IMG/VR virus record: IMGVR_UViG_3300009068_000170
Span: 1-25,643 of that record
DNA length: 25,643 nucleotides
DNA from: a virus
Strand: one strand, 5' to 3'
Below are positions 4,279-25,126 of the stretch, piece by piece. The translations under genes were made by a program, and so were the position numbers. A model generated the notes under the pieces. It had not been told where the DNA came from and did no database searches. It saw only the letters and a program-made list of their open reading frames with translations. Numbering within the stretch: position 1 is the stretch's first letter; the number at the start of each line of letters is the position of its first letter.

Positions 4279-4689
4279 ATGGGAACATTAAGACCATTAG
4301 AGCTTGATCCATTCGACTTGCTCTGGAAAGACCTCTTCGAAACAGTACCACACTTCTCTGCAATTACGCAGAAAATATCGCATCCAGTAGACATTTATGA
4401 AACAGAAAACGGCATCTCTTTTGAGGTTGCTGCAGTAGGCCTAGACAAAGAAGACATAGACATTCTAGTTGACGGAGACCAACTTCGTATTAAATACGAA
4501 AAAGTAAAACCAGTAAATCAAGAATCTGTTATTTATCGAGGAATTAAAAGATCAGGATTTGATCTAAGTTGGAAAATCTCAGTTAAATTTGAAATTTCTA
4601 AATTAGAAGCAAAACTTGAAAAAGGACTTTTAATTTTAGATATTCCTTACGCAGAATCTAAAAAACCAAAACAAATAGAAATTAAATAA
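4279..4689 (+). CDS. Small heat-shock protein (Hsp20, alpha-crystallin family)
   Basis: 136 aa ATP-independent holdase that would bind unfolding proteins and pass them to GroEL or Hsp70. The alpha-crystallin domain runs from about residue 35 to 130: HPVDIYETENGISFEVAAVGLDK is its opening strand pair, KFEISKLEAKLEKGLLILDIP carries the conserved A-x-L-x-x-G-L-L-x-I-x-I-P ending. The N-terminal arm (about 35 aa) and C-terminal tail (KPKQIEIK, with an I-E-I motif suited to the IXI oligomer contact) are both present, so the protein looks complete. It is the first gene of a module with GroES and GroEL. Cyanophages are known to carry Hsp20; the combination with a full chaperonin is less usual. Confidence 0.9.
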   Translation: MGTLRPLELDPFDLLWKDLFETVPHFSAITQKISHPVDIYETENGISFEVAAVGLDKEDIDILVDGDQLRIKYEKVKPVNQESVIYRGIKRSGFDLSWKISVKFEISKLEAKLEKGLLILDIPYAESKKPKQIEIK

Positions 4690-4692
4690 AGT

Positions 4693-4702
4693 AAGGCCTA
4701 CC
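4693..4702 (-). repeat. Inverted repeat flanking hsp20, right copy
   Basis: AAGGCCTACC, reverse complement of 4210-4219, starting three bases after the hsp20 stop. The next bases repeat CCTA twice (CCTACCTAAG). Confidence 0.45.
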
Positions 4703-4712
4703 TACCTAAGTT

Positions 4713-4901
4713 ATGTTTTCAATCTGCAAAAATTTCATTAAAGTAAATGATGACTTATTTTTAGTCAAGCGAGTTCTATTCGAAGATCGGATAAAAGATC
4801 TTGAAGGAATTAAACAATGGCTTGGAGCAGATTCTGTTTATAAAAAAGATAACCTACTCTATTTTTGTATTAAAATAGATGAATTAGAAATTGTAAATTA
4901 A
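4713..4901 (+). CDS. 62-aa protein of unknown function in the chaperone module
   Basis: A short frame starting 23 nt after hsp20 and ending 6 nt before groES. The sequence (FIKVNDDLFLVKRVLFEDRIKDLEGIKQWLGADSVYKKDNLLYFCIKIDELE) looks like a small alpha-beta domain with no signal peptide or membrane segment. Similar short proteins in phages form small housekeeping families without known role. Because it lies between hsp20 and groES and has tight spacing, it is probably co-transcribed with them. Confidence 0.65.
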   Translation: MFSICKNFIKVNDDLFLVKRVLFEDRIKDLEGIKQWLGADSVYKKDNLLYFCIKIDELEIVN

Positions 4902-4907
4902 CAATAT

Positions 4908-5198
4908 ATGAATAAAATAACCCCGCTAAATGGTTTCATTTTGTTGAAACCAATAGAGACACAAGAAGAGACATTCGGTAATATCATTATTCCTGATCTA
5001 GGCAAAGAAAGACCTGAAATGGGAGAAGTAGTAGCAACCTCTGATATCTACAATTATCATACAGATAAATTTGTAGTATCCAATATAGAAGTAGGAGAGA
5101 TTGCACTAATCCCTAAAATGGGATCTCAAAGAATTGTTCTTGACGGACAAGACTATTTCATTTGCAAAGAAACGGATATTTTAGGAATTATTGAATAA
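4908..5198 (+). CDS. groES: Co-chaperonin GroES
   Basis: 96 aa, the usual length for GroES. The N-terminal strand ITPLNGFILLKP matches the IRPL-x-D-R-V-x-V-K-P start of the family. Residues 16-30 (ETQEETFGNIIIPD) form the mobile loop, and the hydrophobic tripeptide III (26-28) corresponds to the IVL that docks on GroEL. The roof region and the C-terminal strand (DYFICKETDILGIIE) are also present. It is the lid of the chaperonin cage and lies 17 nt before groEL. Phages such as T4 encode a GroES substitute (gp31), but that is not sequence-similar; this one is a true GroES. Confidence 0.92.
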   Translation: MNKITPLNGFILLKPIETQEETFGNIIIPDLGKERPEMGEVVATSDIYNYHTDKFVVSNIEVGEIALIPKMGSQRIVLDGQDYFICKETDILGIIE

Positions 5199-5215
5199 AA
5201 AAATTAAATAATATT

Positions 5216-6841
5216 ATGAGTACAACAAAAAATGTTTTCGGAACAGAACTTAAAGAAAAGTTATTGTCCGGTATAGAAAAATTAAATGCATCAGTATCAT
5301 CAACACTAGGTCCAGGTGGACGCACTGTTTTAATTCGTGAACAGAATGGAGAAGTCAAAGTTACAAAAGATGGTGTAACAGTTGCTAAAGCTTTTCATAA
5401 ACTAGAAGATGATATTGAAGATCTTGGTGCACAACTTGTAAAACAAGTAAGTATTAAATCTGCAAATGAAGCAGGTGATGGTACAACAACATCTACACTT
5501 ATTGCAACTGAAATTGTAAAAGCTGGATTAAAAGAAATTCGCCAAGGTTATAATGCTGTTGAGATTAAAAATGAAATTGATAAAATTGTTTTAGAAGTAA
5601 TTCAAGAAATTAAAGATAAAGCAATTGAGATTTCTTCTGAAGAACAAATTAAACAAGTAGCAACTATTTCAGGTAATAATGATCCAGAAGTTGGAAATTT
5701 AATTGCTACCGCAATTGATAAAGTTGGTCGTGAAGGTGTTGTAACTATTGAAGAATCTAAGACAGGAGAAACTTGTCTTGAAGTTGTTGAAGGTATGCAA
5801 TTTGATCGTGGATATAAATCTCCATATTTTGTTACTAACAATACAACAATGCAAGCAGGTCTTGAAAATCCTTATATCTTATTGTATGATGGACGTATTA
5901 CAACTGCACAAGAATTGCTTCAAGTACTTACAAAAGCAAATTCAGAAAATAAATCGCTATTAATTATTGCAGAAGATATTGGAGATGAAGCTCTAGCAAC
6001 ATTAATTGTAAATAAAATGCGTGGCATTATTCAAGTATGCGCAGTAAAAGCACCAGATTTTGGTGAAAGAAAAACCCTGATCTTAGAAGATATTGCTATC
6101 TTAACCGGAGGTCAAGTTGTTTCTAAAGATAAAGGACATAAGCTTGATAAATTAACCCCAGCTCAACTTACAGATTTCTTAGGCACTGCTAGAATGTCAA
6201 CTATTACTAAAGAAGAAACTACTATTGTAGATGGTAAAGGAGACGAAGCTAAAATTGAAGCTAGAGCAATTGAGATCAAAGATCAAATTGAAAAAGCTAC
6301 TTCATTTTATGAGAAAGAAAAACTACAAGAAAGACTTGGTAAGTTGATTGGTGGTGTTGCAATTATTTCTGTAGGTGGTAATTCTGATATTGAAATTAAA
6401 GAAAAGAAAGACCGAGTAGAAGACGCACTATTTGCAACTAAAGCAGCGCTTGAAGACGGAGTAGTTCCAGGAGGAGGTACAGCATTGTATCAATCTTCTC
6501 TTAATCATAGAGCAGAGACAAGTGTTAATGTTGCAATTGCTAGGTCAATTTTATTAGATGCACTACAAGCTCCATTTAAGAAAATCCTTGATAATGCAGG
6601 AGTAAAAGATTGGTGGAATTATATTCCAAGTGAATTAGTCAAAAATAAAATTTATGATGCAAAGAATCATAAAATGGTAGATGCTTTTGAAGCTGGTATT
6701 ATTGATCCTGCAAAAGTGGTTATCACAGCGCTTAAAAATGCTGCATCGGTAGCCGGAACAATTCTAACAACAGAAAGTGTTATTTTTGAAAAATTAAATA
6801 AAGATGAGAAACCAGCAGATCCTATGATGGGTATGATGTAA
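5216..6841 (+). CDS. groEL: Chaperonin GroEL
   Basis: 541 aa, close to the 548 of E. coli GroEL. The ATP-binding and hydrolysis residues are present: D52 in KDGVTVAK, D88 in GDGTTT, and D403 in [21 protein letters not shown] (E. coli D398). The apical domain keeps the substrate and GroES binding face (GYKSPYFV near 199-206, [23 protein letters not shown] near 248-270). The C-terminal tail ends in PMMGMM, a short form of the GGM tail. Equatorial residues 430-490 ([24 protein letters not shown]) are also intact, so it should form an active ring. A codon-usage check against the neighbours would show whether it was acquired recently. A terminator follows directly. Phage GroEL genes are known (for example phage EL), but a groES-groEL pair with hsp20 is uncommon. 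Confidence 0.97.
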
Positions 6842-7261: not shown

Positions 7262-8194
7262 ATGAAAGCAGCAATTGTAGGAATGCTAAATAATGTGAGT
7301 AACAGTCAAAATCACCATGGCGGAGGTTATTCGCGGATCATGGTAAGTATACTAAAAGAATCTATTCCAGAAGTAGAATTTACACTTAATCCAGAACCTA
7401 GTACTTGGAATGAGTATGACTGCCTTTGCATTTTAGAAGGAGTCAACTATCAAGAAAATACTTTTAATTTTATTGGAGGTCCTCAACCTGAACATACTGA
7501 AAAGCTAAAAGCTATTCTTGATTATAAAGGTACTATTAAATTTATTAATAAATCATTAGACTTTTCTCAATTCAATAAAAGATTTGCTCTTGAAGGAGAA
7601 TTTCCTACCGGTAAAACTATTGACTTTGCTACTAAGTATGGTGAAAAAACTAAAAAAATAGTTGTAGGAGATTCACATTCACTTAGTGTTTGGAAGCCTG
7701 GTTTTGGTATTAATAGAACAGATGGAAAAACTTTATTTGGTTTCTTAAAAAATGCAGATTCTTTAGTTGAAGAGTGGAATCAAAAGTATGATGAAGTAAT
7801 TTTATACTTTGGTAATATTGATCTTCGTTTTCATTTAATGAGACAAGAAAATCCAAGAGCGGCGGTAGGAGACCTATTTAGAAGGTATATAGAGTTTGCT
7901 AAAAAATTAAATAACGCAACTCTAGTTAATTTGTTACCTGTTGAGCATGAAAGTCGTAAATTACCTGGTACAGGTTTATATCTTAAACAACCATTCTTTG
8001 GAACAAGACAAGAACGAATGAATTTAAGAGACGCTGCAAATAGAATCATAAATAATTCAGGACTTAATACAATTCAATGGCCTGATGAATGGATTGATGA
8101 AGATGGTACAAAAATGTTTGAGTACATGGAACCTAAACAATCTGTACATTTAAAGCCTAAATATTATAAGTACTTTAACCAATATAATGACTAA
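7262..8194 (+). CDS. SGNH/GDSL-hydrolase-like protein
   Basis: 310 aa. The C-terminal two thirds carry three blocks in the order and spacing of the SGNH hydrolase fold: GDSHS with a possible nucleophilic Ser (near residue 140), GNIDLR (near 183), and SVHLKPKYY near the end (His near 300). The N-terminal 110 residues (MKAAIVGMLNNVSNSQNHHGGGYSRI) look like a separate alpha-beta domain. No signal peptide is present, so it acts in the cytoplasm or the virion. SGNH proteins remove or add acyl groups on sugars, which would fit a role with the phage glycosyltransferases, but that link is inferred. Its stop overlaps the next start (TAATG), so the two are translationally coupled. Confidence 0.55.
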   Translation: MKAAIVGMLNNVSNSQNHHGGGYSRIMVSILKESIPEVEFTLNPEPSTWNEYDCLCILEGVNYQENTFNFIGGPQPEHTEKLKAILDYKGTIKFINKSLDFSQFNKRFALEGEFPTGKTIDFATKYGEKTKKIVVGDSHSLSVWKPGFGINRTDGKTLFGFLKNADSLVEEWNQKYDEVILYFGNIDLRFHLMRQENPRAAVGDLFRRYIEFAKKLNNATLVNLLPVEHESRKLPGTGLYLKQPFFGTRQERMNLRDAANRIINNSGLNTIQWPDEWIDEDGTKMFEYMEPKQSVHLKPKYYKYFNQYND

Positions 8195-9237
8195 TGCAAA
8201 AATTTATAATTAACGAAAAACTTCTAGATGCATTAGATGAATATGATAAACGTAGTCTATTAATGCAACAGCATGGTAGTTTAAAACTTCCATATCAAGG
8301 AGATCTATATAAAGATGTAAATGATGATCTAATTTATTATGTACCTATTTATGATACTGCGCATCGTAGATTTGCTGCATTCTGTGCATTTACTGAAGCT
8401 ATATGGTATAAAGAAAAAGATATAAGGGGAATGGGTAATCACTTTACCAATCATGATATTAAAGATGATTTTAATTGGTTCATGTTATTTTATTTATTTA
8501 GGTTGTGTGGTTCAGGAATTAATTATGTACCTAGATATAAAACAGATCATATCAAGGACATATTAGGAACGCATGGTTTCGGTAATTTTTGGATCGTAAA
8601 TTCTATATTGAAAGAGCATTACACATGGCCAGAATGGAAGCAAGACCTTTATAATAGGATAACTCCATTTACAGATAATAAAGGTTATCTACTTCCACAA
8701 TTTACATTTGAAGGTGAAACTAGAGGACACTTAAGAAGATTTATTCTTGATCATGCAGAAGGTTTAGTTAGACACATATATGAAGCTGTTACTACAAAAA
8801 GACTCGACATATATCAAGTAACTGATTTAGGTAATGAATATCTAAACAATATTGGATTTAAAAGACAGAATTTTGTTGTAACTGCATTTGCAGCCGATTT
8901 AGCAGAGTATTTCCCACAGTACGTTAATCCTAAAGGTTGGGTATATGCTGGAACAAATGCAGTTCGTTGTATTAAAGCAATATTTCCTAAAGTAAGTCCT
9001 AAAATAAAAGAGTTCGAATATATTAATGAAGTACTACAATTCTTATCAAATAGATATAACTTAAATCCTATTGATTGTGAAGATAGTAGAGCTTGTGACG
9101 TAGTAAGATATTTTCAAGAATATCAGTCCGAAGATCATATTATTAAAAACAATGGTAGAAGAATGTATAATAATTCAATTCTCAAACAAACGTGGGGTCA
9201 TGATAAATACTATGACTTCGCAACTAAATTAAAATAA
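8194..9237 (+). CDS. Possible DNA base hypermodification protein (AADT / aGPT-PPlase-like helical family)
   Basis: 347 aa, translationally coupled to the preceding gene. Mostly helical, rich in aromatic residues and Arg. Visible blocks: FTNHDIKDDFNWFMLFYLFRL (85-104), THGFGNFWIVNSI (126-138), GHLRRFILDHAEGLVRHIYEAV (178-199), FVVTAFAADLAEYF (227-240), YAGTNAVRCIKAIF (251-264) and DSRACDVVRYFQEY (297-310). The order 'tyrosine-rich helices, then a F-x-x-x-x-x-A-x-D-L block, then a G-T/P-G/N-A-x-R block, then an acidic helix near the C-terminus' is how I remember the glycosylase-like helical families of thymine hypermodification (amino acid:DNA transferases, alpha-glutamyl/putrescinyl thymine pyrophosphorylases, and the helical part of HMdU-DNA kinases). 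The match is remembered, not computed. A PLP-enzyme-like gene two genes on supports it. Otherwise it is an unknown phage protein. Confidence 0.42.
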   Translation: MQKFIINEKLLDALDEYDKRSLLMQQHGSLKLPYQGDLYKDVNDDLIYYVPIYDTAHRRFAAFCAFTEAIWYKEKDIRGMGNHFTNHDIKDDFNWFMLFYLFRLCGSGINYVPRYKTDHIKDILGTHGFGNFWIVNSILKEHYTWPEWKQDLYNRITPFTDNKGYLLPQFTFEGETRGHLRRFILDHAEGLVRHIYEAVTTKRLDIYQVTDLGNEYLNNIGFKRQNFVVTAFAADLAEYFPQYVNPKGWVYAGTNAVRCIKAIFPKVSPKIKEFEYINEVLQFLSNRYNLNPIDCEDSRACDVVRYFQEYQSEDHIIKNNGRRMYNNSILKQTWGHDKYYDFATKLK

Positions 9238-9246
9238 AACAAAAAA

Positions 9247-9930
9247 ATGAAAAAAATCACAATCATAGTAGTAGGTCTACTAGTAACATTATTCAGTTGT
9301 AAAACAAAAAATGAAGACATTAAATTTGATAAAGCTGTAAAAATTCACCAAGGATCTTTTGCATTCTGTGGAGCATCAGCAGCAATTCCTACTGGAAAAA
9401 AGATTATTGTTCAAGGAGTAGAATATGATGAAGGATGCGCTGTATGTCCTGTATTAACAGGTCCATCTATTTCTAATTTAGTAATGGAAGGTGTAAGCGG
9501 AACTTATGGAAAGTTTAATGTAAATAAAAACTTTCAAACTCCTGATGGAAGTGATACTACAGTATGGTCTTTATTTTGGTATTATGATTCAACAACTACT
9601 GTACCACAATTTAATCCAGCAACTAAAGAGTGGGAATTTTTACCTCCTATAAATCGTTCGTTTATTGTAAATTTAGATTCTCCAAGTACGAGTGAAAGTA
9701 ATATGTTTGCAATGCCAGGAGTTATCTTTGATACAACATCTACTGGTATTATATTAGCAAGAGTATATGGACCACTTAATGAAGCAGCAGTTCCATTACG
9801 TAAAGCAGTTCCTGTTACATCTGGAATGAAATCTATTACTGCAGCTAAAGAAGGATTTCCATATCCAGTAGGAACCCCAGTGCCTATTATTGAATTAAGC
9901 AAAGAACTTCAAAAAGAAGAAAAAAAATAA
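9247..9930 (+). CDS. Phage-encoded lipoprotein, unknown function
   Basis: 227 aa. The N-terminus has a lysine pair, a hydrophobic core (ITIIVVGLLVTLF) and a lipobox ending LFSC at about residue 18, so it should be lipid-anchored in the cell envelope after cleavage before Cys. The mature part has a Cys pair in a GCAVC context (near residues 63-67), another Cys in AFCGAS, and many beta-type stretches (FIVNLDSPS, GIILARVYGPL). I do not recognise a domain. Envelope lipoproteins made by phages often block superinfection, which is one option here. It lies between the two hypermodification-like genes, only 9 and 3 nt from them. Confidence 0.7.
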   Translation: MKKITIIVVGLLVTLFSCKTKNEDIKFDKAVKIHQGSFAFCGASAAIPTGKKIIVQGVEYDEGCAVCPVLTGPSISNLVMEGVSGTYGKFNVNKNFQTPDGSDTTVWSLFWYYDSTTTVPQFNPATKEWEFLPPINRSFIVNLDSPSTSESNMFAMPGVIFDTTSTGIILARVYGPLNEAAVPLRKAVPVTSGMKSITAAKEGFPYPVGTPVPIIELSKELQKEEKK

Positions 9931-9933
9931 CTA

Positions 9934-10821
9934 ATGTTTTTAAACAAAGCTACAGATCAATCAAATTTAGATATGTCAGATGGTAGAGATTTAAACTATT
10001 ATCTTGAAATGACAAAAGACTATAAACATGATTTTCAGTTTGAATTAAAACAAGCAGAAGGTTATACTATAGTAGATGATGGAACATTTCAATACGGAAG
10101 TAAAGCTAAAATGGCCGACTTCATGATTAGTCAAGTAAAAGAAGATACTTTAATTTATGTAGCGCCAAGAACAGGTTATGCTCCTTATTCACTTACTTAT
10201 CTTGCAAAAAAATATAATAAGAAGTTGATCCTGTTTATGCCAGCATCTAAAGAAGCATCAGAACACCAACTAAGAGTTATTGAAGATGGTGTGACTCCTA
10301 TATTTTTAAAAACTCCTGCTATGCCAACTATTAATGGTTGGGCAAAAGATTTTGCAAAAAAAATTGGAGCGAAGTATTTACCATTTGGACTTAAACATGA
10401 ACAAGTTGTAGCAGGGGGAGTAAGAATATTTCATGATGCATTTAAAGATAAAATAATTCCAAATATGTGGACTGTATTTTCTACAGGAGTTTTATCTAGA
10501 ACATTACAAATCGCTCTACCTAATACAAATTTTAATGCTGTAGCAGTAGCAAGAAATGTGCAACCAGGTGAATTAGGTAGAGCTAAATTTTATACACACC
10601 ACAAAGACTTTCTAAAAAATGCTGAAACAGAAACTCCATTTGATTGTATAAAAACTTATGATGCAAAAGGTTGGGAATACATGAAAAAATATGGACACTT
10701 AAAAGATTGGTTTTGGAATGTAGCTAGAAATATGCCAAAGCCAACAATTAAGCCAAGTGATATTGATTCTCAACGAGAGTGGGGCGATAAGTCTGATATT
10801 ATTAAGTACTTAGGAGAATAG
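9934..10821 (+). CDS. PLP-dependent enzyme-like protein (fold type II)
   Basis: 295 aa. Several blocks follow the cysteine synthase / threonine synthase pattern: YGSKAKMADFMI with a candidate Schiff-base Lys (K57 or K59), PRTGYAPYSL in the place of the substrate-binding SGNTG loop, KKLILFMPASKEASEHQLRVIEDGVTPIFL in the place of the K-L-x-x-x-x-P-x-x-x-x-x-x-R-x-x-x-L-x-x-x-G-A region, and FSTGVLSRTL in the place of the phosphate-binding GTGG loop. Such enzymes use pyridoxal phosphate to rearrange amino acids. In thymidine hypermodification phages, PLP enzymes modify the amino acid already joined to the base. It is the last gene of the block, 3 nt after the lipoprotein gene. The PLP residues are plausible but partly degenerate, so a non-catalytic relative is possible. 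Confidence 0.6.
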   Translation: MFLNKATDQSNLDMSDGRDLNYYLEMTKDYKHDFQFELKQAEGYTIVDDGTFQYGSKAKMADFMISQVKEDTLIYVAPRTGYAPYSLTYLAKKYNKKLILFMPASKEASEHQLRVIEDGVTPIFLKTPAMPTINGWAKDFAKKIGAKYLPFGLKHEQVVAGGVRIFHDAFKDKIIPNMWTVFSTGVLSRTLQIALPNTNFNAVAVARNVQPGELGRAKFYTHHKDFLKNAETETPFDCIKTYDAKGWEYMKKYGHLKDWFWNVARNMPKPTIKPSDIDSQREWGDKSDIIKYLGE

Positions 10822-10845
10822 TTTTATTAGATTAATAAATTTAAT

Positions 10846-10853
10846 TATATTTA
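10846..10853 (+). promoter_or_regulatory. Promoter box for the nucleotide-metabolism block
   Basis: TATATTTA ends 4 nt before the ATG at 10858, again giving a near-leaderless transcript, as at the polymerase gene. Confidence 0.45.
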
Positions 10854-10857
10854 CTTT

Positions 10858-11163
10858 ATGAATATATTAGAACAAGCAAATGAGATCATTTATAAAAGAA
10901 ATGAAGAAAAAGCTAGACAGTATGGACCAATGCAAGAAGGCATGCAAGAAGCGGCTAAGATAGCCTCTCTATTGTCTCACAAAGAAATTACTGCTGTAGA
11001 TATGTACAATTGTATGATAGCCTTAAAACTATCTAGACAAGCATATAATCATAAAGAAGACAATTTGCTAGATGCAGTTGCATACATGGCATCATTAAAC
11101 GATTATCAAAATAATTTACAAAATGAAAATTCTAAAGACGAGAGACGTAAAGACACCAAGTAG
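10858..11163 (+). CDS. DUF6378-like small phage protein
   Basis: 101 aa. NILEQANEIIYKRNEEKARQYGPMQEGMQEAAKIASLL, then ITAVDMYNCMIALKLSRQAYNHKEDNLLDAVAYMASL, match the layout of the DUF6378 family: an N-terminal 'ILxxAxExIxxxRxxxYG' helix, and a second part 'Vxxxxxxxxmxxl K-xxRxxxxxxxDNxxDxxxY'. Members are common in phages next to nucleotide genes; the conserved acidic and histidine-like positions recall all-alpha NTP pyrophosphohydrolases, but activity has not been shown to my knowledge. The last 41 nt overlap the dUTPase gene. Confidence 0.65.
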   Translation: MNILEQANEIIYKRNEEKARQYGPMQEGMQEAAKIASLLSHKEITAVDMYNCMIALKLSRQAYNHKEDNLLDAVAYMASLNDYQNNLQNENSKDERRKDTK

Positions 11164-11551
11164 AGGAACATCTGAAAGTGCTGGTATAGATTTTTATGTG
11201 CCTAATGATTTTGAAGATGTAGTATTACAACCAGGAGAATCAGTATTAATTCCATCAGGAATTAAAGCTCAAGTTCCAAGAGGAAATGCATTAATTGCAT
11301 TTAATAAATCTGGAGTTGCTACTAAACAAGGTCTTATGGTTGGAGCTTGTGTAGTTGATGAAGACTATGAAGGAATTATACATCTTCATATGACAAATAC
11401 ATCAAATAAAGAACAGCTTATAAAATCAGGACAGAAACTAGTACAATTTATTTTACTACCTGTAAACTATTCTGAAGTACAAGAAGTACATGAATTACAA
11501 TCTAGAAATACAGAAAGAGGATCCGGAGGATTTGGATCAACAGGACTTTAA
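11123..11551 (+). CDS. dut: dUTPase (trimeric dUTP diphosphatase)
   Basis: 142 aa, the normal length for a trimeric dUTPase. All five motifs are present: 1 SAGIDFYV (19-26), 2 NKSGVAT (61-67), 3 CVVDEDYEG (76-84, with catalytic D79 region and Y82), 4 GQKLVQFILLP (103-113), 5 RGSGGFGSTG (132-141). It splits dUTP to dUMP and pyrophosphate, keeping uracil out of DNA and giving dUMP for the ThyA-like enzyme encoded downstream. The start at 11123 lies inside the preceding gene; it gives the standard short N-terminus before motif 1. Confidence 0.96.
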   Translation: MKILKTRDVKTPSRGTSESAGIDFYVPNDFEDVVLQPGESVLIPSGIKAQVPRGNALIAFNKSGVATKQGLMVGACVVDEDYEGIIHLHMTNTSNKEQLIKSGQKLVQFILLPVNYSEVQEVHELQSRNTERGSGGFGSTGL

Positions 11552-11565
11552 AATTATAAATCATC

Positions 11566-11778
11566 ATGCTTGAATTCAAACATCCAATACCAGTAATAGT
11601 AGAAGGAGGAAAAGAGGGGTATGCTATTTATGTTGTTAATGGTGGAACATTTGAAAATGATATATGGTGTATTGTATTATGTGAAGGTGGTACAGTTAGA
11701 CATTATAGAAGTGATCAAATTAAAATGCATCATAATTCAACTTTAGATTTATCAAAAGATGAAAAAAATAATAAATAA
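11566..11778 (+). CDS. 70-aa small phage protein, beta-rich
   Basis: Starts 14 nt after dut. The sequence PIPVIVEGGKEGYAIYVVNGGTFENDIWCIVLCEGGTVRHYRSDQIK alternates strand-forming stretches and Gly turns and could form a small SH3-like barrel. The C-terminus (LDLSKDEKNNK) is charged and overlaps the next gene by 20 nt. Close-looking proteins with 'GGTFENDxWxxVLCxGGxVRHYxSxQIxxHxN' are common in T4-like phages without known role (from memory). Confidence 0.65.
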   Translation: MLEFKHPIPVIVEGGKEGYAIYVVNGGTFENDIWCIVLCEGGTVRHYRSDQIKMHHNSTLDLSKDEKNNK

Positions 11779-11989
11779 ATTTGGTCTAGAATTAGAAATT
11801 GGAGACAAATTATTAATAATAACAGATAGGATAGACGATAAAATGTTAGCAAATGTTAGCCTAAATGAAATAATAACAATAACTGGATTCTCTGATAATG
11901 AAAAAATAATGTATCATCATAATTCTTTAGCATTACCTGTAGATTGTAATATTTACAAAAAATTAGAGGGTGATAAAAATAATGAATAA
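11759..11989 (+). CDS. 76-aa protein of unknown function
   Basis: A short protein (KFGLELEIGDKLLIITDRIDDKMLANVSLNEIITITGFSDNEKIMYHHN...) with a beta-rich, barrel-like hydrophobic pattern. It overlaps the preceding gene by 20 nt and the dCMP deaminase gene by 8 nt, so it belongs to the same transcript. Its pattern 'YHHNSLALPV' resembles the 'MHHNST' of the preceding protein; the pair may be diverged duplicates. Confidence 0.6.
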   Translation: MKKIINKFGLELEIGDKLLIITDRIDDKMLANVSLNEIITITGFSDNEKIMYHHNSLALPVDCNIYKKLEGDKNNE

Positions 11990-12383
11990 ATTAGATAAAG
12001 TATTTATTAATATAGCAAAGGAAACATCTACTCTGTCACACTGCGTTCGATCTAAGGTCGGCGCAGTTTTAGTTAAAAGTGGAAATATAATTTCTTTTGG
12101 CTATAATGGAACTCCTGCAGGAATGAATAATGAGTGTGAAGAAAATGATGTTACTCTATCTCATGTTATACATGCTGAAGTAAATGCTATTCTTAAAGCG
12201 GCAAAAACAGGAAACTCTGTAGATGGATCTACTTTGTATCTAACTCTTTCACCATGTTTAGACTGCTCTAAACTTATTTTGCAATCAGGAATTAAAAAAG
12301 TTGTATATTTAACTAACTATCGTAATCTTGAAGGCGTAGATTTTCTTAAACAATTTATAGAAGTAGAACAATATGGAGAATAA
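11982..12383 (+). CDS. dCMP deaminase
   Basis: 133 aa zinc enzyme that turns dCMP into dUMP. Zinc ligands and the catalytic Glu are H64-A-E66 (HAEVNAI) and the pair C92/C95 (SPCLDC). The family start SHCVRSKVGAVLVK and the GYNGTPAGMNN loop, which binds the nucleotide, are clear. I choose ATG at 11982, overlapping the previous stop as ATGAATAA; a GTG at 11970 would add four residues but has no advantage. Together with dUTPase it gives dUMP for the next gene. Confidence 0.95.
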   Translation: MNKLDKVFINIAKETSTLSHCVRSKVGAVLVKSGNIISFGYNGTPAGMNNECEENDVTLSHVIHAEVNAILKAAKTGNSVDGSTLYLTLSPCLDCSKLILQSGIKKVVYLTNYRNLEGVDFLKQFIEVEQYGE

Positions 12384-13017
12384 AATATATAAAACACCGA
12401 CTATAGCATTTGAATATCTTTATCATTATATATTAGGTAAAGGTGAAGACTTTGCTGGTACTAAAGCTATATTCAATTCAGTATTTAGTATACAAGATCC
12501 AACACAAAAAGTAATTGAAACTCCTAAACGTAAGTTTAATAAAGACTATGCTGACTATGAATGGGATTGGTATGTAAAAGGTGATAGAGACGCAAGTGAA
12601 ATAGCAGAGAGAGCAAAGATCTGGAAACAAATGATGGTTCCATTTACTACAGAAGTAAATTCCAATTACGGATACTTTTGGAATTATAATGATCAGCTTA
12701 AAAGAGTTATTGATGAACTAAAAAGAAATAAAGAAACACGTCGTGCAATTGTTGTACATTACATATTACATGAATTAGATAGATATCAATACGATACTCC
12801 ATGTAATGATGTACTTAATTTTTATATTAAAGATAATAAATTACAATTAACAGTATTTGCAAGATCTATAGACTTAGTTTACGGATTTTGTAATGATCAA
12901 TATACCTTTGCAAAGCTAATGGAATTAGTATCAGAAAAAACTGGTTATCCCGTTGGTGAAATGCACTGGATGATAACTAATCTTCATATATATCCAAGAC
13001 ATTACGATTTATTATGA
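12373..13017 (+). CDS. ThyA-family nucleotide hydroxymethylase or thymidylate synthase-like enzyme
   Basis: 214 aa, overlapping dCMP deaminase by 11 nt. Thymidylate synthase family features: SNYGYFW (97-103), R123-R124 (ETRRAIV), catalytic C144 in DTPCNDVLNF, R164-S165-x-D167, and HIYPRH (205-210). Three points argue for a pyrimidine hydroxymethylase: the usual PCH is PCN, the position of the base-reading Asn reads GFCNDQY, where N174 and D175 compete for the role (Asp there marks dCMP enzymes, Asn dUMP enzymes), and the DYEWDWYVKGDR start resembles viral hydroxymethylases. The protein ends four residues after HIYxxH and lacks the usual 40-50 residue C-terminal part. So it makes either 5-hydroxymethyl-dUMP, 5-hydroxymethyl-dCMP or dTMP; I favour hydroxymethylation. 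Confidence 0.8.
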   Translation: MENKIYKTPTIAFEYLYHYILGKGEDFAGTKAIFNSVFSIQDPTQKVIETPKRKFNKDYADYEWDWYVKGDRDASEIAERAKIWKQMMVPFTTEVNSNYGYFWNYNDQLKRVIDELKRNKETRRAIVVHYILHELDRYQYDTPCNDVLNFYIKDNKLQLTVFARSIDLVYGFCNDQYTFAKLMELVSEKTGYPVGEMHWMITNLHIYPRHYDLL

Positions 13018-22374: not shown

Positions 22375-23817
22375 ATGATTAATGGTTATATTCCTCAAGC
22401 ACAAAGAAAAAAAATACTTCTTTTGTGCGATGATATTAGAATGACAAGTGGTATTTCTACCATGGCTAGAGAGATAGTAATAGGAACATCTCACGTATTT
22501 AATTGGGTAAATTTAGGAGGCGCAATAAATCATCCAGATCAAGGAAAGCGTCTAGATATTTCTCAGGATACTAATAAAATTATGGGTCTAAATGACACTA
22601 GTGTTTTTATATATCCTACTAATGGTTATGGATCTCAAGAATTAATTAGGCAACTAATCAGTTTAGAAAATCCAGATGCTATAATGTTTTTTACTGATCC
22701 TAGATATTGGATTTGGTTATTTCAAATGGAGAATGAAATTAGAAAAAAAATCCCAATGATTTATTTAAATATATGGGATGATCTACCTGCTCCATTATAT
22801 AATAAGCCCTATTATGAATCATGTGATACTTTAATGGCAATATCTAAACAAACCCTAAATATTAATAAAATGGTTTTAGGAGATAAGGCTAAAGGTAAAA
22901 TATTAAAGTATATTCCTCATGGAATTAATGAAAATATCTTTTTTCCTATTACAGAATTTAATAAGCCTTATCAAGAAGCTTTAGAAAAAAAGAAAGAACA
23001 AATATTTGGAAATTTTAAACCTGGATTTGTAGCTTTTTATAATGCTAGAAATATTAGACATAAATGTAAATCTGATCTAATTGCAGCAAGGGCTGTATTT
23101 TGTGATAGTATAGGAAAAGAAAAAGCTAGTACATGTGCCTTATTATTACATACACAAAGAGTAGACGAAAACGGGACAGACCTAAATTCAGTAGTTGATC
23201 TGCTATGCGATCCTGAATATCAAAAGGTATATTTTTCAGATGCTAGATTAAATGCAGAGGAAGTTAATCTATTATATAATATGTCTGATGTTACATGCCT
23301 GGTTAGCTCTAATGAAGGCTGGGGATTATCTCTAACAGAATCTATGATGGCTGGAAGAATGATTATTGCAAATGTTACAGGAGGAATGCAAGATCAAATG
23401 AGATTCGAAGACGAAAATGGAAATTGGATCAACTTCAATGATAAATTCTGTTCTAATCATTTTGGAAAATACAAAAAACATGGCGAGTGGGCAATTCCAG
23501 TATTTCCAACTAATATGAGTATTGTCGGATCTATTCCAACTCCATATATTTTTGATGATCGTTGTGATTTTAGAGACGCGGCAAAAGCTTTAGAAGAAGT
23601 TTATAACACGCCTTTAGAAGAAAGATCTAAAAAAGGTTTATTAGCTAGAGATTGGGTTTTATCAAATGAATCTATGATGAGTGCTAAACATATGTGTGAT
23701 AATGTTATATGGACTATAAATGAAAGTATAACAACATTTAAACCTAGAAAGAAATTTGAATTAATTAAAACAGAAAAATTAGCAAAGAAAAAAATTGTAC
23801 ACCCTTTAGTTTATTAA
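22375..23817 (+). CDS. Glycosyltransferase with GT-B fold (GT4-like), 1 of 2
   Basis: 480 aa. The first half (KILLLCDDIRMTSGISTMAREI, 13-34) is a Rossmann-like acceptor domain, the second holds the donor site with the E-x7-E motif E314...E322 (SSNEGWGLSLTESMMAG). No signal peptide or membrane helix, so it is cytoplasmic. Targets could be hydroxymethylated DNA bases (as with T4 glucosyltransferases, also GT-B) or a surface glycan. The DNA-base idea is supported by the ThyA-like hydroxymethylase at 12373, but not by direct sequence similarity. Confidence 0.9.
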   Translation: MINGYIPQAQRKKILLLCDDIRMTSGISTMAREIVIGTSHVFNWVNLGGAINHPDQGKRLDISQDTNKIMGLNDTSVFIYPTNGYGSQELIRQLISLENPDAIMFFTDPRYWIWLFQMENEIRKKIPMIYLNIWDDLPAPLYNKPYYESCDTLMAISKQTLNINKMVLGDKAKGKILKYIPHGINENIFFPITEFNKPYQEALEKKKEQIFGNFKPGFVAFYNARNIRHKCKSDLIAARAVFCDSIGKEKASTCALLLHTQRVDENGTDLNSVVDLLCDPEYQKVYFSDARLNAEEVNLLYNMSDVTCLVSSNEGWGLSLTESMMAGRMIIANVTGGMQDQMRFEDENGNWINFNDKFCSNHFGKYKKHGEWAIPVFPTNMSIVGSIPTPYIFDDRCDFRDAAKALEEVYNTPLEERSKKGLLARDWVLSNESMMSAKHMCDNVIWTINESITTFKPRKKFELIKTEKLAKKKIVHPLVY

Positions 23818-23818
23818 T

Positions 23819-25126
23819 ATGAAACAGTTTTGTGTAATATCATGTCCAATAGATACCTATTCAGGTTATGGCGCTAGAAGTAGAGATTTTGTAAAAGCAA
23901 TATATGAACTTAAAAAAGATGAATATGAGTTCTGTATCGTTAGTCAAAGATGGGGACAAACTCCATGGGGATATATAAAAGATAACATAGAAGAGTGGGA
24001 TTGGGTTTCCCCTTTAATTAGTAAAGATGGGCAACTTAACAGGCAACCTGAAATATGGATACAAATTACTGTTCCTAATGAATTTCAACCAATAGCTACT
24101 AAATGTAATATTGGAGTTACAGCAGGTATAGAAACAACTCTTTGTGACGCTAGTTGGATTCAAGGTGTTAATAGAATGGATATTACATTAGTATCATCTG
24201 AACATGCTAAAAAAGTATTTCAACAATCAACATTTGAAAAAAGAGATGATAAAAATAATGTTATAGAAAGAATTAAATTAGAAAAACCTGTAGAGGTTTT
24301 ATTTGAGGGATTGGATCTAAATAAATACTTCTATATTCCTGATGAAGAGTTAGAGGAGACGGATTTAGTTTTAGAATTAGATGAAATAAAAGAAGATTTT
24401 TGTTTTCTATTTGTAGGACACTGGATGCAAGGTGAAATTGGAGAAGATAGAAAAAATGTAGGTCTGATGATTAAAACTTTTTTTGAAACTTTTAAAGACA
24501 AGAAAAATAAACCAGGACTAATATTAAAAACTTCTTCTTTTGGATCTAGTATTATGGATAGAGAAGAAATATTAAATAGAATTAATATTGTAAGATCTAC
24601 TGTAGATGGAAAACACCTTCCAAATGTATATTTGCTACATGGTGAATTAGATGACAAAGATATAAACGATCTATACAATCATAATAAAGTAAAAGCCATG
24701 ATTAATATAACAAAAGGAGAAGGTTTTGGTAGGCCTCTATTAGAATTCACAACTTCAAAGAAACCCATTATAACATCAGGTTGGTCAGGACAAATTGATT
24801 TTTTAAATCCAGAATTTTCATTATTACTTTCTGGAGAATTAAAGCCAGTGCATCCTTCCGCACAAGTACCTAATATGATTTTAGGAGATTCTCAATGGTT
24901 TAGTCCAAATATTTCTGAAGTAACCCACTATTTAAAAGAGGTATTTGAAAAATATGAGAAATTTGAAGAAGGCGCAAAAAGGCAAGCTCAAATATCTAAG
25001 ACTAAATTTAGTTTTGAAGAAATGAAAAAAGTATTACTTACTTATTTAGATAAAATACCTAAAAATATACCTTTAAAACTTCCTCAATTAAAAAAAATAG
25101 AATTACCAAAATTAAGTAAGGCATGA
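23819..25126 (+). CDS. Glycosyltransferase with GT-B fold, 2 of 2
   Basis: 435 aa, 1 nt after the preceding gene. Ordered blocks: N-terminal CPIDTYSGYGARSRDFVKAI (9-28), middle VEVLFEGLDLNKYF (158-171, the usual P-x-G-V-D linker), FLFVGHWMQGEIGEDRKNVGLMI (196-218), and E301-x7-E309 in TKGEGFGRPLLEF. It differs clearly from its neighbour in the N-terminal half, so the pair may act in sequence, one adding the first sugar and the other a second. The C-terminus is Lys/Pro-rich (KLPQLKKIELPKL). Confidence 0.9.
   Translation: MKQFCVISCPIDTYSGYGARSRDFVKAIYELKKDEYEFCIVSQRWGQTPWGYIKDNIEEWDWVSPLISKDGQLNRQPEIWIQITVPNEFQPIATKCNIGVTAGIETTLCDASWIQGVNRMDITLVSSEHAKKVFQQSTFEKRDDKNNVIERIKLEKPVEVLFEGLDLNKYFYIPDEELEETDLVLELDEIKEDFCFLFVGHWMQGEIGEDRKNVGLMIKTFFETFKDKKNKPGLILKTSSFGSSIMDREEILNRINIVRSTVDGKHLPNVYLLHGELDDKDINDLYNHNKVKAMINITKGEGFGRPLLEFTTSKKPIITSGWSGQIDFLNPEFSLLLSGELKPVHPSAQVPNMILGDSQWFSPNISEVTHYLKEVFEKYEKFEEGAKRQAQISKTKFSFEEMKKVLLTYLDKIPKNIPLKLPQLKKIELPKLSKA

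Follow-up and report, generated by a model that had tools for sequence, protein, structure and literature searches.

Which base does a bacterial virus modify when a thymidylate synthase (ThyA)-family gene stands in one block with genes for a pyridoxal phosphate (PLP) enzyme and a transferase-like protein, and what is attached to that base? The question arises from positions 7262 to 13017 of the virus record IMGVR_UViG_3300009068_000170, a single stretch of 25,643 bases referred to here as the window. A preliminary description of this DNA had read the block as a pathway placing an amino-acid-derived group on thymine. Our analysis points to another base: the locus probably encodes a phage pathway for making 5-hydroxymethylcytosine (5hmC) and decorating it afterwards, the added group probably being derived from an amino acid. 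The argument turns on four genes, together called the cassette: o310 (7262..8194, 310 residues), o347 (8194..9237, 347 residues), the gene of the PLP-dependent enzyme (9934..10821, 295 residues) and that of a pyrimidine hydroxymethylase of the thymidylate synthase family, by its key residue of the deoxycytidylate (dCMP) type (12373..13017). All features described between 7262 and 13017 lie on the plus strand, and an open reading frame check of the window found every named gene open at the coordinates given.

The choice of base depends on the enzyme at 12373 (PF00303, E 1.1e-26). In a sequence search of the PDB, a thymidylate synthase was its first match (E 9.2e-17) and the dCMP hydroxymethylase of phage T4 (1b49) its second (E 2.1e-16); identity to T4 gp42 is 26%. 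The enzyme carries PCN and FCND variants of the family motifs. In the alignment, the Asp of GFCND shares its column with Asp179 in T4 gp42 and Asn177 in E. coli ThyA, and Cys144 aligns with T4 Cys148, a cysteine present in 101 of the 103 cassette-near rows with a residue there. According to earlier work, Asp at this position goes with cytosine substrates and Asn with uracil substrates (PMC5175136, PMC6400193), and the same position separates the contigs of phages with modified cytosine (PMC8670742). With the dCMP-type Asp in the cassette hydroxymethylase, the base modified is likely cytosine, and the earlier proposal of thymine is not supported. From family and key residue, the 12373 protein is likely a dCMP-type hydroxymethylase that would form 5-hydroxymethyl-dCMP; a detour via deamination of this product is possible.

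The Asp is not peculiar to the window. Near cassette PLP genes we counted 116 distinct ThyA-type frames: Asp stands in the column in 94 and Asn in 9, and 13 do not extend to it. All nine Asn frames show the ordinary ThyA motif PFNIASY and lie downstream, and each shares its locus with an Asp copy. By locus, with overlapping loci included, 149 loci have Asp only, 20 have both residues, none has Asn only, 17 are unreadable and 2 have no row. Another 47 distinct frames come from elsewhere, of which 39 carry Asn, 7 carry Asp and one (L257) ends short of the column. Asn occupies the position in all 36 readable frames of phage M6 and of the loci fetched with M6 gp51 or gp55; the remaining Asn frames are SPO1 gp29, E. 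coli ThyA and one second gene. The Asp frames from elsewhere belong to T4, Aeromonas phage 44RR, Bacteroides phage BF503P2 (two), Agathobaculum phage AB434P2 (one), locus L139 and, once more, the window. An Agathobaculum phage gene (L078:3838-4500) is annotated as deoxyuridylate hydroxymethyltransferase, yet its product has the dCMP-type Asp (FPYD), so this annotation may name the wrong base.

The 9934 protein had been taken for a PLP enzyme from its letters alone, and family comparisons bear this out. It has no Pfam match of its own and matches PHROG 7093, 'threonine dehydratase', with E 2.9e-27. Aligned with the family of M6 gp52 by hhalign, its family reached 98.2% probability (E 3e-14), or 96.5% (E 7e-10) with cleaned sets; unrelated pairs involving either profile stayed at or below 2.5%. 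M6 gp52 itself matches Pfam PALP (PF00291, cut-off 35 bits); of three divergent members of the cassette family, the one from L138 exceeded the cut-off (37.4 bits), and those from L136 (34.9) and L110 (24.2) fell under it. Every one of the 114 rows with a residue at this position has Lys57, in a G[ST]K context; 5 further rows, M6 gp52 included, are gapped. We take this residue to be the Schiff-base lysine from its GGxKxR surroundings. A C-terminal YDxKxW...FWN signature is present in 105 of 115 frames and is common to M6 gp52 and to the PLP domains of Erythrobacter phage R6L and Microcystis phage Mae-JY30. By these sequence relationships the protein is a PLP enzyme of fold type II and a relative of M6 gp52; its predicted substrate is an attached amino acid. 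In R6L (gp1, L075) and Mae-JY30 (L076:6360-8678) the PLP domain occurs inside or beside a ParB/DNA-methyltransferase-like system; in R6L it sits between DPFAGGS and SCPPY motifs, with a gene for phosphoadenosine phosphosulfate (PAPS) reductase nearby. These two arrangements are possibly a different DNA modification using the same PLP family.

For o347, which the preliminary description considered helical and transferase-like, scans of Pfam, PHROG and NCBIfam returned nothing. Fourteen of its relatives, searched at E values up to 10, gave no match to the amino acid:DNA transferase (ADDT) profile PF18724 and only weak matches to other families, and PF18724 was found in 0 of 12 records. Structure prediction was more informative. 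An AlphaFold2 model from 44 diverse rows was good (predicted local distance difference test, pLDDT, 89.2; predicted template modelling score, pTM, 0.88) and nearly all helical; a model from 14 close rows reached a pLDDT of 53 and was not used for fold search. In BFVD, searched with Foldseek, the first two ranks were uncharacterized phage proteins, and the third was an 'Amino acid:DNA transferase domain-containing protein' (E 1.5e-11, probability 1.00, template modelling scores 0.74/0.67). A nameless protein (E 4.2e-4), another ADDT protein (E 2.5e-3) and the 5-hydroxymethyldeoxyuridine (5-hmdU) DNA kinase of SP10 (E 1.3e-2, probability 1.00) occupied ranks four to six. In a VIA-align comparison with 397 PDB chains the top match was 8z2n (Z 9.1, 207 aligned residues, root-mean-square deviation 4.3, 9% identity), the 5-phosphomethyldeoxyuridine (5-PmdU) glycinyltransferase of phage PaMx11, followed by 8-oxoguanine DNA glycosylases with Z 8.2 to 7.3. 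M6 gp51 is a sequence relative of the PaMx11 enzyme (E 1.2e-90). Because two libraries lead to one small family, the assignment of an amino acid:DNA transferase fold to the o347 model is credible. The helical prediction for this protein thus stood; its likeness to a transferase holds at the level of the fold, with no match among sequence profiles. The preliminary description had named a lack of profile matches for this protein as evidence that would count against its proposal; the profiles do lack them, and the fold search supplies the answer. By-eye inspection further revealed a C-terminal D-x3-C motif in o347, to be compared with E-x3-C in M6 gp51 and gp55.

No o347 was found in bacterial genome contigs by pattern scan or in cultured phages by tblastn. 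A 174-kb relative (G008), whose own cassette lacks o347, carries a 24% identical copy elsewhere (L275, G008:115500-121000), beside an HhH-GPD DNA-glycosylase-like protein and a 333-residue protein; this divergent copy likewise was not found in cultured phages.

The preliminary description overlooked o310, which is part of the same conserved unit. The protein matches PHROG 13881 (E 3.4e-46) and is marked by invariant GDSH, NID and SVH blocks, which take the form GDSH[SA] in 93, [GS]NIDxRxH in 93 and [SD]VH in 95 of 98 full-length proteins. SGNH hydrolases show GDS in block I, GxN in block III and a His in block V, in this order. In 87 forms of o310 the median spacing is 46 residues between blocks I and III and 158 between blocks I and V. 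In motif order and spacing, o310 is a candidate SGNH-hydrolase-like protein, and a candidate for an enzyme that activates or acylates 5hmC.

Searches with tblastn found o310 in cultured phages, in 43 records that include duplicates: 38 are from Aeromonas, 3 from Tenacibaculum and 2 from Stenotrophomonas phages. In Aeromonas phage 44RR, examined locally over about 69 of its 174 kb, o310 forms the N-terminal domain of the 795-residue ORF233c (218.5 bits, residues 5-333). The end of the same protein weakly matches HMUDK_hel (E 0.0036, 17.2 bits at a cut-off of 25; E 4.1e-4 in a whole-genome search), and this region gave no match to the o347 profile. Phage 44RR has gene 42, whose product carries the Asp, gene 56 and a separate Asn-type ThyA; no PLP-type gene is annotated in the 24 kb that surround ORF233c. 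In a review (PMC2993671), 44RR, 31 and 25 are described as phages with no glucosyltransferase homologues, and genes 42 and 56 are reported for 44RR. Tenacibaculum phage PTm1 has an Asn-type ThyA plus a weak Asp-type relative (37.2 bits, with a less certain alignment). Both of these unrelated cultured phages, the two examined, thus have an Asp-type enzyme, PTm1 on the weaker match, and in them o310 goes with cytosine hydroxymethylation. Close to the replication genes of 44RR, another gene (L353:6130-7299) is annotated as matching serine hydroxymethyltransferase, a PLP enzyme; its product could feed methylene-tetrahydrofolate to gene 42.

To compare the cassette across viruses, loci were grouped by shared sequence into 139 groups, and contigs ending too early were set aside. 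The PLP gene follows o347 on its 3' side in all 69 groups with enough sequence to judge (3 cut contigs set aside). On the 5' side, o310 precedes o347 in 66 of 67 groups (5 set aside), and in 55 of 56 (16 set aside) a gene of the ThyA family lies at most 5.5 kb downstream. The record of the sole group without o310 (L106, record G004) has a 29-31% identical o310 elsewhere, and in the sole ThyA-family miss (L139) an Asp-type copy lies about 8 kb further. Close relatives show an identical gene order with polA and groEL upstream; one of them, a 136-kb contig (L002/G001), carries near-identical genes. In divergent viruses (L110-L119, L121-L141), with an o347 identity of 48-65%, the genes for o310, o347, the PLP enzyme and mostly the ThyA-like protein are consecutive, usually with a DUF6378 gene in front, and the stretches fetched showed neither polA nor groEL. 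In one of these loci (L138), o310 and o347 form a single frame of 713 residues without a stop, a natural fusion. As gene order is maintained in divergent viruses, the conservation is more than chance: o310, o347, the PLP enzyme and the ThyA-like hydroxymethylase are a real conserved unit of the hypermodification kind.

From these elements a pathway can be proposed. The 12373 enzyme would convert dCMP to 5-hydroxymethyl-dCMP, to be incorporated instead of deoxycytidine, and a deoxyuridine triphosphatase (dUTPase; 11123..11551, PF00692, E 1e-23) and a dCMP deaminase (11970..12383; PF00383, E 2.7e-26; PHROG 174, E 2.9e-55) would adjust the nucleotide pools. In finished DNA, o310 may then activate or acylate the 5-hydroxymethyl group, a step that the P-loop 5-hmdU DNA kinase takes in M6-type phages. 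To judge from its fold, o347 would flip the base and join an amino acid or an amine to the C5 methylene, and the PLP enzyme, to judge from its family, would process what has been attached, perhaps through decarboxylation. A simpler product, or the use of another transferase, might be expected in viruses that have o310 and the PLP enzyme and lack o347. The preliminary description had seen no kinase in the window, and none is seen there in our analysis; among larger related records, which may be fragments, PF18748 was found in 0 of 12 and PF18723 in 0 of 8 distinct cassette contigs. o310 may take the place of the 5-hmdU DNA kinase.

Several observations weigh against this account. The groups are related sequences, and therefore the counts describe conservation and not independent events. 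Of 83 groups that could be judged (9 set aside), 14 have no o347 upstream of the PLP gene, namely those of 12 cassette viruses and of phages R6L and Mae-JY30, where the PLP domain occurs without a ThyA-family gene. We considered that viruses lacking o347 might in every case carry a divergent copy in another place, but 9 of the 10 records searched have none (6 of the 10 are shorter than 36 kb). In a 122-kb record (G005) with a PLP gene and a hydroxymethylase, neither o310 nor o347 was found. On these grounds, taken with the absence of a ThyA-family gene from the two phages, o347 may be an elaboration and not part of the core. For the fold of o347, Foldseek found no PDB match below E 1e-3, and a Z score of 9.1 is by itself only moderate for a helical protein. 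Comparison of o347 with the M6 ADDT and HMUDK_hel families by hhalign was not significant, in a test with little power because these two families scarcely detect one another (16.8 and 21.4% probability); it was done twice, with first-round profiles blurred by read-through and fused rows and with cleaned sets in the second round. o310 had no significant match in Pfam, NCBIfam or PDB profile searches, and its SGNH label comes from motifs. The account as a whole is drawn from sequence and predicted structure, from which we infer the chemistry.

Other explanations of the locus have to be considered against the same evidence. The block could serve thymine hypermodification, with 5-hydroxymethyl-dUMP, made directly or via deamination of hydroxymethyl-dCMP, replacing thymine and with o347 and the PLP enzyme adding the amino-acid-derived group. 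The fold of o347 and the PLP family are indeed those of the M6 and PaMx11 thymidine pathway, and a dCMP deaminase lies within the block. Among the divergent loci (L110-L119, L121-L141; 31 in all, several short), however, that deaminase was detected in only 5. In the cassette enzyme, Asp and not Asn stands at the base-specificity column, nine distinct ordinary ThyA frames occur beside an Asp-type copy, neither family of 5-hmdU DNA kinases appeared in the records searched, and o310 co-occurs with a T4-type gene 42 in 44RR. We therefore consider thymine quite unlikely as the modified base. Alternatively, cytosine is hydroxymethylated and then glycosylated by the products of 22375-23817 and 23819-25126, with o310, o347 and the PLP enzyme in another role, e.g., in base-excision defence or counter-defence. 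These two adjacent downstream genes resemble group-1 glycosyltransferases (the second under the Pfam cut-off) and are kept in several relatives at 57-76% identity, and the fold of o347 is also that of DNA glycosylases (Z up to 8.2). But the pair was not detected in the fetched divergent loci L110-L141, many of which are short, where o310, o347, the PLP enzyme and the hydroxymethylase remain together, and the well-scoring named BFVD relatives of o347 are transferase and 5-hmdU kinase proteins, which makes this explanation unlikely.

A third possibility takes the cassette away from DNA: it would modify free nucleotides or another target, such as capsid or lipid, and its association with the hydroxymethylase would be inertia of gene order. 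Phages often hold metabolic genes in blocks, and o310 is without a known function. Against it stand the persistence of the unit at an o347 identity of 48-65%, in stretches without detected polA or groEL, the occurrence of o310 alongside Asp-type enzymes in two unrelated cultured phages, and the DNA-modifying fold of o347; we regard it as very unlikely. Production and decoration of 5hmC, probably with an amino-acid-derived group, is the explanation we retain.

The remaining genes of the window add context. Pfam matches support the earlier statement that dUTPase, dCMP deaminase and a ThyA-family enzyme with PCN and FCND stand in one block. Next to the PLP gene lies a DUF6378 gene (10858..11163; PF19905, E 3.5e-14), a habitual neighbour found close to the cassette in most loci listed, distant ones included. 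Between o347 and the PLP gene, a small gene that appears lipoprotein-like by eye (o227, 9247..9930) had no significant family match in Pfam, PHROG or NCBIfam; it is present in some loci, and in others o347 is directly followed by the PLP gene. o227 is probably outside the pathway. Adjoining the cassette, positions 4279-6841 hold genes named from reading the sequence as small heat shock protein-like, GroES-like and GroEL-like. The glycosyltransferase-like pair at 22375-25126 may encode extra 5hmC decorators or surface enzymes. The idea that o101 is a T4 gp56-like deoxycytidine triphosphatase (dCTPase) was dropped, as hhalign gave no support.

If the proposed pathway is correct, amino-acid-type chemistry would extend to cytosine by a step without the known DNA kinase, and viral DNA would have a new kind of chemical camouflage, common to many very different viruses. 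In the literature searched, phage elaborations of 5hmC are glycosylation and carbamoylation, and amino-acid-type chemistry after hydroxymethylation is described for thymidine (PMC8670742, PMC12783734, PMC6449724). Titles and abstract openings of the open-access literature yielded no report of a PLP/ADDT-type route on 5hmC. New here would be the cytosine route with an o310 component instead of the known kinase, a combination that would surprise specialists. A broader and distinctly more tentative idea is a kinase-free amino-acid hypermodification of 5hmC in which o310 founds a new activating or acylating class, its partner is o347 or a fused HMUDK_hel-like region, and the side chain is completed by the PLP enzyme; the o310 class might then explain 5hmC protection in T4-like phages with gene 42 and without glucosyltransferases. 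Whether such T4 relatives carry another decoration was asked in 2010 for phages like RB69 and JS98, with 44RR, 31 and 25 in the same group (PMC2993671), and RB69 has since been reported to be arabinosylated (PMC6024577). ORF233c of 44RR is a concrete candidate gene for this question and makes it testable.

Among the known systems close to the cassette is the M6 cluster, which comprises gp51 (ADDT), gp52 (PLP enzyme), gp53 (radical S-adenosylmethionine (SAM) enzyme, below cut-off), gp54 (HMUDK kinase), gp55 (HMUDK_hel) and gp58 (ThyA family). M6 DNA carries 5-(2-aminoethyl)deoxyuridine (5-NedU) according to PMC6449724. Like the cassette, gp51-gp58 bring together a transferase-fold protein, a ThyA-family hydroxymethylase and a PLP enzyme from the family found in the cassette. 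M6 differs in its dUMP-type (Asn) enzyme and in its P-loop 5-hmdU DNA kinase with a helical partner, in place of which the cassette has an Asp-type enzyme and o310, the kinase families not having been found in the records searched; M6 also has the radical SAM enzyme, for which no search was made in cassette viruses. The best solved fold match of o347, PaMx11 gp46 (PUGT; 8z2m, 8z2n), is related to the ADDT protein M6 gp51 and differs from o347 by its 9% identity and by the PF18724 profile, which o347 does not match. The T4 gp42 system shares with the cassette an Asp-type hydroxymethylase and a phage-borne dUTPase, and T4 also has a dCMP deaminase; in T4, however, gp42 is encoded beside beta-gt, and the cassette enzyme beside o310, o347 and the PLP gene.

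Two further pathways act on cytosine. In environmental phages, the 5-carbamoyloxymethylcytosine pathway found by MetaGPA combines an Asp-type ThyA relative with a 5hmC-decorating enzyme, as the cassette is proposed to do, but uses a carbamoyltransferase in place of o310, o347 and the PLP enzyme (PMC8670742). The CmoA/CmoX/CmoY pathway to 5-carboxymethylcytosine-glycine likewise places an amino acid on a C5 handle of cytosine in phage DNA; there the handle is made by a cytosine methyltransferase homologue with carboxy-SAM (Cx-SAM) and glycine is joined by an amide ligase (PMC12783734), and the words PLP and hydroxymethylcytosine do not occur in the main text of that report. On the side of o310, close counterparts are ORF233c of 44RR and its relatives, in which the o310 domain occurs in a phage with genes 42 and 56, fused, unlike o310 of the window, to a weakly HMUDK_hel-like region.

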